Shown: piece after piece, positions 1 through 64,000 of the stretch | Layout: the number at the start of each line of letters is the position of its first letter | Numbering within the stretch: the stretch's first letter is position 1 | Assembly (NCBI RefSeq): GCF_030580855.1 | Contig: NZ_JAUQOP010000029.1 | Coordinates: 1-64,000, forward strand | Length of the DNA stretch: 64,000 bases | Direction: 5' to 3' | From: Pseudomonas citrullilanati | GTDB taxonomy: Bacteria > Pseudomonadota > Gammaproteobacteria > Pseudomonadales > Pseudomonadaceae | The notes under the pieces: model-generated | The model's input: the letters and a program-made list of their open reading frames with translations, nothing else | What the model was told of the DNA's origin: nothing | The model's database searches: none | Translations under genes and position numbers: made by a program

Positions 1-31
1 AAAAAGGAAGGAAAGTATTAATATCGCGCAT

Positions 32-48118: not shown

Positions 48119-48964
48119 ATGACACTCCGTTATCCACAGGTCCTGCTGTTGCTTTGCGCCCTGACCGCGTTGCCATCGGCCAATGCCGCCGACCCCGTCA
48201 AGCTCGACACCCCGATCGGCGGCTGGCGCAGCGGTGCGCCGGGCGGCGAAGGCGAGAATTACAGCCAGGTCGTCAATTACCCGGCCTCGTCGGTCAATAC
48301 GCCCCAGGGGCAGGCTGCCACCGCACGCGTCACCGGCCAGATCAGCGCCACGCCCAAGGGTAACGGCGAGCCGGGCAAGCTCATCGTCAACGGCGTGAGC
48401 ATGCCGCTCAAACTCGATGAGGAAGGTCGCTTCGACCGGCCGTTCTCGTTCCCCAATGGCAGCAACAGCGTCGAAGTGCGCAGCCCCGACGGCCAGCACC
48501 GCCATCGCACGCAGTTCCTCCACACCAGTGGCGGCGCCAGCCCGGCCAAGCTGCGGGTGCTGTTGACCTGGGACAGCGACGGCACCGACCTGGACCTGCA
48601 CCTCGTCACCCCGGACGGCGCCCACATCTGGTACGGCGACCGCGTTGCCCCCAATGGCGCGGCCCTCGACATCGACGTCACCACCGGCTACGGCCCGGAA
48701 ATCTTCTCGATGCCCGCGCCGATCAAGGGCCAGTACCTGGTCTACGTGAATTACTACGGCGGTGGTTATCGCCAGGTCGCCGACGAGGATGAAGGCGAAG
48801 AGGGTGGGGAAAGCGGGGCGGATGAAGCGGTGCAAGCCCTGACCACCGCGCAAGTGACGGTGATCACCGAAGAAGGCACGCCGAACGAAAAGATGGAGAC
48901 GTTCGTGGTGCCGATGAGGGCGGTGGGCGAGCTGACGTTGGTCAAGAGCTTCAGTTATCCGTAA
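48119..48964 (+). CDS. magF: DUF2135 exported protein, last gene of alpha-2-macroglobulin operon
   Basis: A 281-residue YfaP-like paralogue of the first mag gene, with a signal peptide (LLLCALTALPSANA). It shares VNGVSMPLKLDEEGRFDRPF, SNSVEVRSPDGQ, VLLTWDSDGTDLDLHLVTPDGAHIWYGD and YLVYVNYYGGG, and has a Glu/Asp-rich insertion (DEDEGEEGGESGADEA) absent from the paralogue. The DxDxHLVTPDG-type stretch is a VWA-like acidic strand that may bind metal. It starts three bases after the DUF2300 stop. Confidence 0.86.
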   Translation: MTLRYPQVLLLLCALTALPSANAADPVKLDTPIGGWRSGAPGGEGENYSQVVNYPASSVNTPQGQAATARVTGQISATPKGNGEPGKLIVNGVSMPLKLDEEGRFDRPFSFPNGSNSVEVRSPDGQHRHRTQFLHTSGGASPAKLRVLLTWDSDGTDLDLHLVTPDGAHIWYGDRVAPNGAALDIDVTTGYGPEIFSMPAPIKGQYLVYVNYYGGGYRQVADEDEGEEGGESGADEAVQALTTAQVTVITEEGTPNEKMETFVVPMRAVGELTLVKSFSYP

Positions 48965-61081: not shown

Positions 61082-61367
61082 CGGGGTGAGGTCTCGCCGG
61101 TTGCGGGGCTGGGCTTTTACAGGTGCGAGATTACGATAGGTTGAGGGTTTGCTGGCGGGTATTTCTTGAGAATGAGCGCGGGTAGGCATTCAAGACGCAA
61201 TGAGTCGCCAGATTTCGGTGGTGCATGAGATGTCATCCAGTCGACGTGGTTTGTTTGAATGCGTTGGCTCACCTAAGCTGAATTTTCCTGGACATGCGCC
61301 AAGTGCCTTAACGCACCATGCGGCCATCCGGCTTGCGGCACCGCTCAGCAGCCAGGGGGAGGAAAGG

Positions 61368-62372
61368 ATGCCAAACGTGCTCGTGGTGATCTGGGACTTC
61401 GATACGCGCAGATTACGAATCCCGGTCAGGGATAGCCTTGTCCACATACACAACAGGATTAGAGCCCTGGAGCACATGGCGACAACAGTATTCGCCGCTA
61501 ATGTCGTCCAGCATCAATTGGATTACTGTCTGGCCGTCGCCCCCGAATACTTCTTTTCCAAGGAAAAACCTGTTTCGTTTCTTTCGGAAGAAGAAAAGGA
61601 AATCATCCGGGCTACATGGGTGGATGTCTCAAATAGAAACCCGACGCTGATACTGGTCCCCGGTACGACACTGTGGTCCAAATCAATGGTGCGACCCGAT
61701 TCCAGGATGTTGAAAAGGGAGACGGGGGAGTTGAAACCCTTGGGGCAGGCCAGGGATATCAACAAGGATAAATATGGTGAGGAAATGGACGCGGTGGTGG
61801 ACGAAATACCGCAGGGGGACCGCCTGAACAAGGGGATTTATGGCGATTACGCACGGTCTACGAAAACGGTCATCACCAACATGGCATCAAGAGGCGCGAG
61901 GGCCGCACATGGAATCGTCAGGAATACCGGCTTCATCATCTGGCAAGGAAACGTTTTTTATCAGCATAAACGCTACCCCAACATAGGAGACGAAGGGCTG
62001 GAGGAGTTGTATGGGGCGGAGTTATGGTTCGACAAGATATTCATGCCGGGCGGTTATCGAGAAACCCCTGCTGTTCATGGGCTGCAAGTTGCTTTGGAAA
62101 TATGCGCAGAACACTTTGTGGGCGCAACGATCCTGCATAAGAACAACGTACTGGATTTTCATGTCCTGGTCTCGGCCAGCATCGCGCTCGACAAAAAACG
62201 CGTGGGTGTAAAGCTCGGAGGGTATGTCGTTCACGCTGATTCGAATGGCAGCTCAGTGTACCGACGTGAAGGCATGGATTTGGTTCGACTCCAAGCCATC
62301 GATCAAAGACCCGTAAACTTGATGGGCGTTGCAGCCGGGGGCGCCAGGAGTTTTGTTTGCGCGATTGCGTAG
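61368..62372 (+). CDS. nitrilase-superfamily-like protein, accessory
   Basis: A 334-residue protein I assign by eye to the carbon-nitrogen hydrolase fold. A Glu-Lys-Cys triad is plausible: Glu60 in AVAPEYFF, Lys201 in QHKRYPNIGDE, and Cys246 in LQVALEICAEH. The match is divergent and no close family is recognised. GGGGGAGGAAAGG gives a strong ribosome-binding site at the ATG. Base composition is visibly lower in GC than the cluster to the left, and codon use differs, which suggests transfer. The 286 bases before it show nothing else I can name. The substrate is unknown. Confidence 0.7.
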   Translation: MPNVLVVIWDFDTRRLRIPVRDSLVHIHNRIRALEHMATTVFAANVVQHQLDYCLAVAPEYFFSKEKPVSFLSEEEKEIIRATWVDVSNRNPTLILVPGTTLWSKSMVRPDSRMLKRETGELKPLGQARDINKDKYGEEMDAVVDEIPQGDRLNKGIYGDYARSTKTVITNMASRGARAAHGIVRNTGFIIWQGNVFYQHKRYPNIGDEGLEELYGAELWFDKIFMPGGYRETPAVHGLQVALEICAEHFVGATILHKNNVLDFHVLVSASIALDKKRVGVKLGGYVVHADSNGSSVYRREGMDLVRLQAIDQRPVNLMGVAAGGARSFVCAIA

Positions 62373-62438: not shown

Positions 62439-62461
62439 GTGGGAGCGAGCCTGCTCGCGAT
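62439..62461. repeat. solitary REP (family A)
   Basis: One copy (TGTGGGAGCGAGCCTGCTCG...) after the nitrilase-like gene. No inverted partner is nearby. Confidence 0.85.
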
Positions 62462-62628
62462 AGCGGCTCATCAGCCACCTCCGGCCAGCTGTTTATCGTG
62501 ATACCACGAAACCAGCCCCGACCGACATCGCCTTGCGCCATTGCCTACAACTACGCCAGAATCCGCCGGCTTGTGCGTCTTTGGCCGCGTCGGTAGTTTG
62601 AGTCCTGTCACTGAGCATCAGTGATCGG

Positions 62629-62831
62629 GTTTAGTCGCCCGTCTCAACCTAAGGCGTACCAGGTCCCCGTCGGACAGGCTGTTCTGTTCCTGTATTGATG
62701 GTGGCTGTGCGCAGGGCGCCCTCGGGCGCGCCGGGATTCTTAGGTTCACCGGTCGACTAACCTGCGCACAGCTGCCGCCCTCTCGTTTAGTCGCGAGGTG
62801 GTTGCAGCATCACTTACAGGAACCTAAGTCG
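62629..62831 (+). promoter_or_regulatory. structured leader with alternative pairings, DUF6124 gene
   Basis: The leader has a long hairpin, GCTGTGCGCAGG (62704-62715) with CCTGCGCACAGC (62761-62772), which can extend with wobble pairs; inside is GCGCCCTCGGGCGC (62716-62729). TTAGTCG occurs at 62631 and 62787 and AACCTAAG at 62646 and 62821. The middle holds their complements in matching order: CTTAGGTT (62739-62746) and CGACTAA (62754-62760). The 3' AACCTAAG abuts the start codon, so the pairings could expose or hide the ribosome-binding site. Confidence 0.6.
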
Positions 62832-63191
62832 ATGGCAAAAATTACACCAAACCCCCCAACCGCAGATGAGCATGTATCTCGCGCTCAGTCTGCTCGTAAC
62901 AATAAGCTTGATGAAGCTGCCAACCGGGCGTTGGATTACTACCTGAAGCCTACGCCGAAGAGCGAAACGTCTGACAAGCCCAACACCATTTTCCGTATCG
63001 CGCCGGATATTGATTCGGAATGTCTGCTGGCCAACCTCAGTGAAAACTTGGCTTCGGCCAATGCCATGATCAGTGATTTGGCGTTTGATCTTGAGGGATC
63101 GCGACGGCGTGTTGCGATGGGGATTTTGCAGGTGATTGAGGTGAGTGAATTGTTGGCGAATCGGGCTTTGGATATTGTTGAGGTGAGGTAG
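62832..63191 (+). CDS. DUF6124 (formerly DUF3077) family protein
   Basis: A 119-residue soluble helical protein that I recognise as the small Pseudomonas family DUF6124/DUF3077. It has a polar N-terminus, NNKLDEAANRALDYYL, and a C-terminal helix bundle (LLANLSENLASANAMISDLAFDLEGSRRRVAMGILQVIEVSELLANRALD). The function is unknown. Multiple paralogues per genome are usual. The ribosome-binding site CAGGAA overlaps the end of the structured leader. A terminator follows. Confidence 0.85.
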   Translation: MAKITPNPPTADEHVSRAQSARNNKLDEAANRALDYYLKPTPKSETSDKPNTIFRIAPDIDSECLLANLSENLASANAMISDLAFDLEGSRRRVAMGILQVIEVSELLANRALDIVEVR

Positions 63192-63194
63192 CAA

Positions 63195-63211
63195 GGGGTA
63201 TCGCTTACCCC
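63195..63211 (+). repeat. small hairpin after DUF6124 gene
   Basis: GGGGTA and TACCCC pair over a 5-base loop, just past the stop codon and before the terminator. Confidence 0.5.
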
Positions 63212-63225
63212 TGGTATGAAAAAAG

Positions 63226-63248
63226 GGTCTTGCTTGGCAAGACCTTTT
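63226..63248 (+). terminator. rho-independent terminator of DUF6124 gene
   Basis: GGTCTTGC pairs perfectly with GCAAGACC over the loop TTG and is followed by TTTT; an A-run precedes it on the other side, so it may work in both directions. Confidence 0.85.
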
Positions 63249-63369
63249 CGTATGCGAGAGTCCCGAAACGACGAGCGCCCAAATTGTCCAACAACCTGTT
63301 GGATAATTGTCTACGTCAGCAGGACATTTTTTGGGTTGGGTGGAGTTAAAAAACCACTGAAAAACGCCA

Positions 63370-63424
63370 CCTCTGCAGCTTGGCATGAGCTGGAATTGCT
63401 CCAGCTCATGCCAAGCTGCAGAGG
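63370..63424. repeat. perfect 25-bp inverted repeat hairpin
   Basis: Arms 63370-63394 and 63400-63424 are exactly complementary over a 5-base loop ATTGC. On the minus strand TGGCGTTTTT follows, so it can terminate the partial gene to the right, but the stem is far longer than a normal terminator. The 25-bp arms begin CCTCTGCAGCTTGGC. A shorter hairpin (TCCAACA with TGTTGGA) lies at about 63286-63302. Confidence 0.8.
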
Positions 63425-63441
63425 CAGTGGTTTAAATTATA

Positions 63442-64000
63442 CTATTTTTTTGATAAATCTAGTACAAATATGTCTATTAGTCCCTTAAGATCTTGTGGCA
63501 GCATTTCCTCAACGCTATTTTTTAGAGCCTGAGCAGATGTAATACCATGATTCTTACGTTCGGCGACTGATTCCGTCTCGCCGAACCAAAGTATGAGGTA
63601 TATACCCTGTTCCTCCGCCTCTGGATGAATGGCGTAGCGCTCGAAAAGCTGTGTTGAAGCTGCGCTATAGAGCTCTCTGTGCCATTGTCCTTTCACTTCG
63701 GTCACAAGCAGTCGTCGTTTCCCATTGATTATTTTTGCGACGGTGAAATCACTTCGTTTTTCTGATTTGAGATGGTGTTCAGGAGTTATGATGATATTTT
63801 GATGCCTAAGAATTAGGCTAAGCCTTTCAGCAATTATCTCGGTGCATGACTCTTCTCCAAGTCTTGCTCCATTGCTATAGAATCGATCTACCGAGTTATA
63901 TTCGCCTCCAAAAATGTATTTCTGATATTCCTGTAGTTCTTGGATGATGAGTTGCCGTAGACCTTCTACGGTAACTATGGAGTCACGATCAAGTGTGTTA
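63442..64000 (-). CDS. partial gene with C-terminal PD-(D/E)XK nuclease-like domain
   Basis: Open on the minus strand from the right edge to a TAG at 63442, giving the last 186 codons of a longer protein; the GTG at 63705 is internal. SDFTVAKI and 17 residues on LLVTEVKGQW fit the Asp...Glu-x-Lys core of restriction-endonuclease-like nucleases. They are followed by STQLFERYAIHPEAEEQG and IYLILWFG, a pattern seen at the C-termini of large NTPase-type defence proteins. Base composition is clearly AT-rich compared with the rest of the window, which points to a horizontally acquired, possibly anti-phage, locus continuing beyond the window. Confidence 0.65.
   Translation of the reverse strand, partial: NTLDRDSIVTVEGLRQLIIQELQEYQKYIFGGEYNSVDRFYSNGARLGEESCTEIIAERLSLILRHQNIIITPEHHLKSEKRSDFTVAKIINGKRRLLVTEVKGQWHRELYSAASTQLFERYAIHPEAEEQGIYLILWFGETESVAERKNHGITSAQALKNSVEEMLPQDLKGLIDIFVLDLSKK

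Follow-up and report, generated by a model that had tools for sequence, protein, structure and literature searches.

The leader ahead of the DUF6124 gene of Pseudomonas citrullilanati, located in an analysed stretch of 64,000 nucleotides (the window), is very probably a chromosomal C4 antisense RNA locus, that is, a new chromosomal case of a known kind of RNA with an unusual set of private pairing codes. The Rfam search proposed in a preliminary description of this DNA assigns the central part of the leader to the C4 family (RF01695) with 75 bits against a gathering cut-off of 45 (E 1.2e-14), the match spanning model positions 1-87 of 87, i.e., its full length. Promoter, a1, b1, C4 RNA with b′ followed by a′, a2, b2 at the ribosome-binding site and start codon succeed one another in the window in the same order as in the c4-icd region of the annotated phage P1 record (a1 at 48255, b1 at 48269, C4 at 48343-48419, a2 at 48423, b2 at 48452, and icd at 48470), in which C4 is 77 nt long and two promoters precede a1. 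The likeness to the C4 systems of phages P1 and P7 extends to the spacing of these elements, which is similar, to the scaffold, which is the same, to the position of b2 close before the first start codon, and to promoters upstream of a1, whereas the window locus is chromosomal and multi-copy and its first gene is DUF6124 rather than icd. The c4-icd-ant (immI) region of these phages has icd and the antirepressor under control, while the target in the window is DUF6124 and not an antirepressor. Thus the view that no described regulator has this layout gives way to C4, to which both the Rfam match and the order of elements in phage P1 lead. What stands of the preliminary description is the RNA leader of a DUF6124 gene (Table 1) with complementary arms, one of them covering the initiation region; what finds no support is its proposal of two exclusive cis folds.

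Every word and coordinate of that description was found exactly in the sequence by direct reading. TTAGTCG is present twice (62631-62637 and 62787-62793), as is AACCTAAG (62646-62653 and 62821-62828), with CTTAGGTT (62739-62746) and CGACTAA (62754-62760) in between, and GAACCTAAG (62820-62828) forms 9 bp with CTTAGGTTC (62739-62747) immediately before the ATG at 62832, the Shine-Dalgarno sequence being AGGA at 62818-62821. The perfect 12-bp stem GCTGTGCGCAGG/CCTGCGCACAGC is also present and falls within C4 stem P1, in a helix of 16 pairs, G-U pairs among them (62700-62715 / 62761-62776); GGTGG is found at 62700 and likewise at the 5′ end of phage P1 C4, on whose model the ends of the mature RNA are predicted at about 62700-62779. 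The two middle arms correspond to b′ in the loop of stem P3 and to a′ in the joint before stem P1, and their complementarity both to a1/b1 upstream and to a2/b2 at the ribosome-binding site is that of C4. The window has, with 7-mers, a layout of two words repeated in order with both complements reversed between them; when 62600-62835 was shuffled 5000 times at the dinucleotide level, this layout appeared twice even if 6-mers were accepted, and a single 7-base word with its complement between two copies 44 times. The two-word layout was found again at other loci.

Table 1. Elements of the C4 locus and its target gene in the window.
Feature	Coordinates	Strand	Remarks
Putative promoter	62571..62599	+	-35 TTGTGC 62571-62576, 17-nt spacer, -10 TAGTTT 62594-62599; transcription presumably starts at ~62606
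5′ leader hairpin TCACTGA/TCAGTGA, part of c4-a1b1 motif	62608..62624	+	Perfect inverted repeat
a1 (62631-62637) in hairpin loop, stem CGGG/CCCG	62626..62641	+	
b1 arm, AACCTAAG	62646..62653	+	Complementary to b′
C4 antisense RNA	62694..62782	+	Rfam RF01695; stems paired in nine related leaders
b′ arm, loop of C4 stem P3	62739..62747	+	
a′ arm, between C4 stems P3 and P1	62754..62760	+	
a2 (62787-62793) in hairpin loop, stem CTCG/CGAG	62782..62797	+	
b2 arm, overlaps Shine-Dalgarno, ends 3 nt before ATG	62820..62828	+	
DUF6124 gene, 119 aa, target	62832..63191	+	PF19619, E 2.1e-28

The complementary arms were initially thought to constitute a bistable cis leader, a′/b′ pairing within one molecule either with a1/b1 or with a2/b2 and the second fold hiding the start. 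Both nested pairings do exist in the sequence, and the 5′ one, whose cost relative to the ensemble is no more than about 6 kcal/mol, might arise while the leader is being transcribed; either of them, nevertheless, breaks C4 stem P1, and the 3′ one is worse by about 16 kcal/mol (ensemble energies of -108.4 kcal/mol unconstrained, -102.6 for the nested 5′ fold and -92.5 for the nested 3′ fold, in a comparison of nested, pseudoknot-free folds). In the fold of the full leader, pairing within the arm helices stays under a probability of 0.001, that of the inner 12 pairs of stem P1 is at least 0.97, and the outer four pairs of P1 are weak (0.11-0.39). Further against the cis switch, it is the C4 scaffold stems themselves that paired changes preserve, in P1 as in P2: all three stems are retained in nine related leaders, 210/210 counted cells being paired, with two of the four P3 pairs sitting in gaps in most rows, and double changes affect one pair of P1 and three pairs of P2. 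On the folding energies the bistable cis switch was rejected, and we consider it most improbable; judged from sequence, repression of DUF6124 by a released antisense RNA appears far likelier than by nested cis folds. The region 62610-62860 folds better than 200 of 200 shuffles (-100.5 kcal/mol, z -3.27), and the C4 core alone has -49.1 kcal/mol.

Of the two outcomes that the preliminary description named as refuting a switch, neither appeared, the first of them being a lack of covariation: the arms do vary together between loci. Arms were taken from all 94 C4 matches of three of the ten picked genomes (see below) and 14 of the window's genome; three of these 108 (one truncated and two divergent, the same three that lie below the cut-off) were dropped before alignment, and in the 105 loci left from four genomes b′ and a′ were scored for ungapped complementarity against the upstream and downstream stretches of every C4. 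Mean scores for own and other flanks amounted to 20.7 and 12.7 for b2, 18.3 and 13.3 for b1, 17.2 and 11.3 for a2, and 17.5 and 12.8 for a1, loops read backwards giving 13.3, 13.3, 11.3, and 12.7, respectively. With all four arms summed, the own locus ranked first of 105 in 91 cases and among the top three in 101; by single arm it was first in 56 (b2), 31 (b1), 22 (a2), and 48 (a1) of 105, these ranks being low because many loci share an a arm. This scoring on narrower arms was chosen second, after a duplex-energy test with long flanks had given a weaker signal (own locus first in 26, 16, 2, and 22 of 105 for b2, b1, a2, and a1), probably because stem letters and long flanks add noise.

Closer relatives point the same way. 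In a MAFFT alignment of nine related leaders, where cells count sequences and not events, both a1:a′ and a′:a2 are paired in 63/63 cells with three of seven columns changed on both sides, against 6 to 43% of paired cells in slid controls; only the a arms entered these counts because the alignment of the b arms is gapped. Paired cells, cells changed on both sides, and covariation score were each reached by none of 500 shuffles. The number of double-change columns is not unusual (the observed count is reached by 268 shuffles of 500 for a1:a′ and by 290 for a′:a2), nor is the number of pair types (454 and 451 of 500, respectively). Codes differ among the leaders from named species, even though the proteins encoded behind them share 81 to 94% identity with that of the window.

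The same match of each C4 to its own flanks bears on the proposal that C4 works chiefly in trans, with unrelated host mRNAs as its targets, a role put forward for the Group 1 C4-like sRNAs of Acinetobacter baumannii AB5075, which are likewise multi-copy, vary in a′, and are proposed to bind various targets (PMC5320573). Since almost every C4 among the loci compared is matched by the cis arms beside it, such a predominant mode of action seems unlikely here. That paper describes 21 similar C4-like sequences in one genome, with read coverage starting at a GGW motif in all full-length copies but two, and reports very limited homology of Region 1 to the P1/P7 upstream sequence; neither cis target arms nor a DUF6124/DUF3077 gene are described in the passages considered. 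It also mentions that C4 was predicted in Pseudomonadales, among others, by Weinberg et al., 2010 (PMC2864571), where c4 antisense RNA and c4-a1b1 are listed; therefore, the presence of C4 in this bacterial order is not new. Within the titles and abstract openings of the open-licence literature, no paper was found that reports a coupling of C4 to DUF6124 or insulated sets of C4 in Pseudomonas, which is weak evidence of absence.

The elements of the window locus recur at other C4 loci. The c4-a1b1 motif (RF03163), which has the same hairpin and a1-b1 upstream of C4, matches at 62593-62645 with 27 bits only, below its cut-off of 46.7 (E 1.6e-4), and is above the cut-off at a number of the 80 named Pseudomonas loci considered below. 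As to the second refuting outcome, a transcription start mapped downstream of 62790, a conserved pair of promoter-like boxes lies upstream of a1: the pattern TTGnnn-16..18-TAnnnT is found within 85 nt before a1 in 85 of the 101 loci (out of 105) that have an exact 7-base a1, against a mean of 3.1 and a maximum of 8 in single-base shuffles. A strict consensus promoter scan of 62450-63350 found none. In the same 101 loci a hairpin of at least 5 bp is situated within 34 nt before a1 in 89 (a count without control), and a stem of at least 3 surrounds a1 in 95 (mean 75.8 and maximum 81 with shuffled partners, 300 shuffles), as one surrounds a2 in 81 of the 94 loci, out of 105, with an exact 7-base a2 (mean 55.2, maximum 62). 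By a permissive criterion a b1 helix of at least 6 is present in 102/105 loci. A start codon is found near b2 in 101/105, and in 97 of these b2 overlaps the Shine-Dalgarno zone from -16 to -4.

We propose, on the antisense reading, that a single transcript initiated at the promoter near 62571-62599, as the conserved boxes suggest, would comprise a1-b1, the C4 RNA, and the DUF6124 message, from which RNase P would free a C4 RNA of about 77-80 nt by analogy with the processing of P1/P7 C4 and A. baumannii C4-like RNA (the P1/P7 mechanism being drawn from the P1 record, PMC5320573, and PMC12197685). In the released RNA b′ would be exposed in the loop of a hairpin and a′ in an unpaired joint; a′ would bind the loop of the a2 hairpin and b′ would bind b2 at the Shine-Dalgarno sequence, so that translation of DUF6124 would be blocked. 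C4 may thereby act on later transcripts of its own gene and, given the different codes of the other C4-linked mRNAs, probably less on these, according to sequence scoring rather than binding. The a1-b1 copy, which changes along with the code, might titrate C4 or time its release, and expression of DUF6124 would be expected to rise when C4 is scarce, e.g., just after the module enters a cell.

The association of C4 with the target gene is widespread. In the three picked genomes C4 lies within 600 nt upstream on the same strand of 62/73 DUF6124 matches and of 7/10 DUF3077 matches, and 69 of the 94 C4 precede one or the other; 11 of the 73 DUF6124 matches have no C4 close upstream, two of these being second genes of a tandem, and the same is true for 4/16 in the window's genome. 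Upstream of DUF6124 loci from named Pseudomonas (the best 80 of 172), Rfam detects C4 over cut-off in 69. These Rfam counts are used because a regular expression, tried and rejected, missed some of the C4 found by Rfam and produced some false matches. The 11 loci without C4 are L222, L237, L240, L243, L245, L246, L247, L249, L253, L257, and L266; the query match starts after the first residue in 10 of them and at residue 24 or later in 7, and a late start of the match also occurs in some loci with C4. Apparent loss of C4 is seen at L222, L237, and L257, which have a c4-a1b1 match, and at L062, where an a1-type hairpin is recognizable by eye. At L248, L251, L263, and L267 an Rfam isrK match over cut-off overlaps the a1-b1 motif and ends just before C4.

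A simple start rule yielded translations of 105 first genes for the 108 loci: 78 belong to the DUF6124/DUF3077 group, 18 to a second small family, and 3 carry Bro-N domains, the remaining 6 standing alone. The second family of small proteins comes from loci of G010, G029, and G046 and from one of G000, and four members scanned gave no Pfam match. One first gene (L170, G046 C1:3610509) begins with MIKVTPNPP like DUF6124, continues as Bro-N, and looks chimeric. Five DUF3077 genes and the one C4-linked gene with a QslA domain are preceded by a short frame that begins downstream of b2 and terminates near or across the start of the following gene, an arrangement recalling icd-ant of phage P1. At L109 (G010 C1:870041), the short frame after C4 overlaps the QslA-domain gene (PF18226, E 3.9e-7). 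A general link between C4 and QslA was discarded, QslA matches being present in only 2/11 genomes and 2 of the 3 matches not being at a listed C4. C4 with cis arms occurs also in other genera, as nine loci inspected by eye demonstrate; the proteins encoded downstream there presumably include AntA-like and Bro-N-like ones among others. The structural model of the window's DUF6124 protein consists of three helices, of which only the hairpin formed by residues 62-117 is modelled with confidence (mean pLDDT 77.2, pTM 0.48), with no PDB fold match at E ≤0.001. Comparison by hhalign led us to reject homology of DUF6124 both with the second downstream family (probability 0.9%, E 0.058) and with DUF3077 (4.5%, E 0.0091); a DUF3077 protein is hit by the Pfam DUF6124 model at E 3e-4, which does not reach the cut-off of that model. 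For this uncharacterised DUF6124/DUF3077 family a likely and testable regulator can be named.

The codes formed by a′ and b′ are almost all distinct within a genome (14/14, 34/35, 27/27, and 29/29 C4 RNAs), the sole repeated code among the 105 belonging to one neighbouring duplicate pair. By sequence scores, which are not measured binding, the own mRNA is the unique best target among the C4-linked mRNAs of the same genome for 97 of the 105 C4 RNAs (14/14, 30/35, 25/27, and 28/29) and is not for 8. Among 28 pairs of loci from different genomes with at least one homologous flank of at least 250 nt, the b′ loop is identical in none and a′ in 17, in a raw count in which both flanks are common in only 3 pairs, loci recur in several pairs, and single-flank pairs may represent different sites; several of the pairs differ by one to three letters. 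We infer from this that the codes may change fast.

These observations suggest, as a tentative and rather doubtful picture, that Pseudomonas chromosomes host mutually insulated C4 switches whose private two-part codes, written in three places, diversify at shared sites, possibly as immunity-like modules, with DUF6124/DUF3077 proteins as effectors in an RNA-coded identity system that would be either domesticated or selfish. A module of this kind would silence itself once C4 has built up and be expressed on entering a cell without its code, and the diversification of codes at shared sites might result from each module working like phage immunity. The C4 loci may be regarded as a natural library of antisense pairs among which cross-reaction within a single cell should, by sequence scoring, be rare. 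Such a library could reveal how short loop codes maintain their specificity and might be put to use in RNA-based control; with so many copies, whose codes differ even where a site is shared, one has to ask which selective force is behind them.

The four genomes compared for codes contain 14 to 36 C4 matches and others up to 55. In the window's genome there are 14, of which 12 are directly upstream of DUF6124 on the same strand by comparison of coordinates, along with 16 DUF6124 matches over cut-off (19 at E ≤0.001). Ten single-contig genomes picked for many leader matches, with 150 candidates scored per genome, have 15 to 55 matches each (E ≤0.001). An even draw of 40 genomes of the genus, including the window's own and with 82 candidates scored, gave a match in 36, over cut-off in 35, and at least 10 matches in 26. 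Across the phylum, where 20 candidates were scored under stricter filters, 28 of 200 genomes have a match over cut-off and 30 any match, 3 of the 30 being of the window's genus. None of 14 control genomes has C4.

C4 is a phage RNA family, and the gene or its start is lost at several loci (G000 C30:44007; G010 741736, 3097680, and 6328023), both of which would be in line with a decayed phage relic devoid of present function. Since many loci and species have retained the arms, the scaffold, the promoter boxes, and open frames while the codes change in concert, this explanation is highly unlikely, and a working C4 locus remains the preferred reading. A tblastn search with the DUF6124 protein of the window gave a match in 1 of 50,697 phage records and no match in 72,556 plasmid records; a relative is encoded on 25 IMG/VR contigs, which may be phage or host flank.

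Upstream of the locus, a 390-aa frame (61200-62372, + strand) matches nothing in Pfam, NCBIfam, or PADLOC within the thresholds applied, and its PHROG match is weak (E 0.078). Downstream and convergent with the DUF6124 gene, 63442-63999 on the minus strand encodes the C-terminal part of the NACHT antiphage protein EruA (NF058535, E 2.1e-72), which covers profile positions 1136-1318 of 1318 with 244.9 bits against a whole-protein cut-off of 1000 and is partial because the frame is cut by the end of the window. Between the DUF6124 gene and the EruA fragment a long inverted repeat (63361-63433) is situated, with 34-nt arms that are 88% complementary and 5 nt apart.
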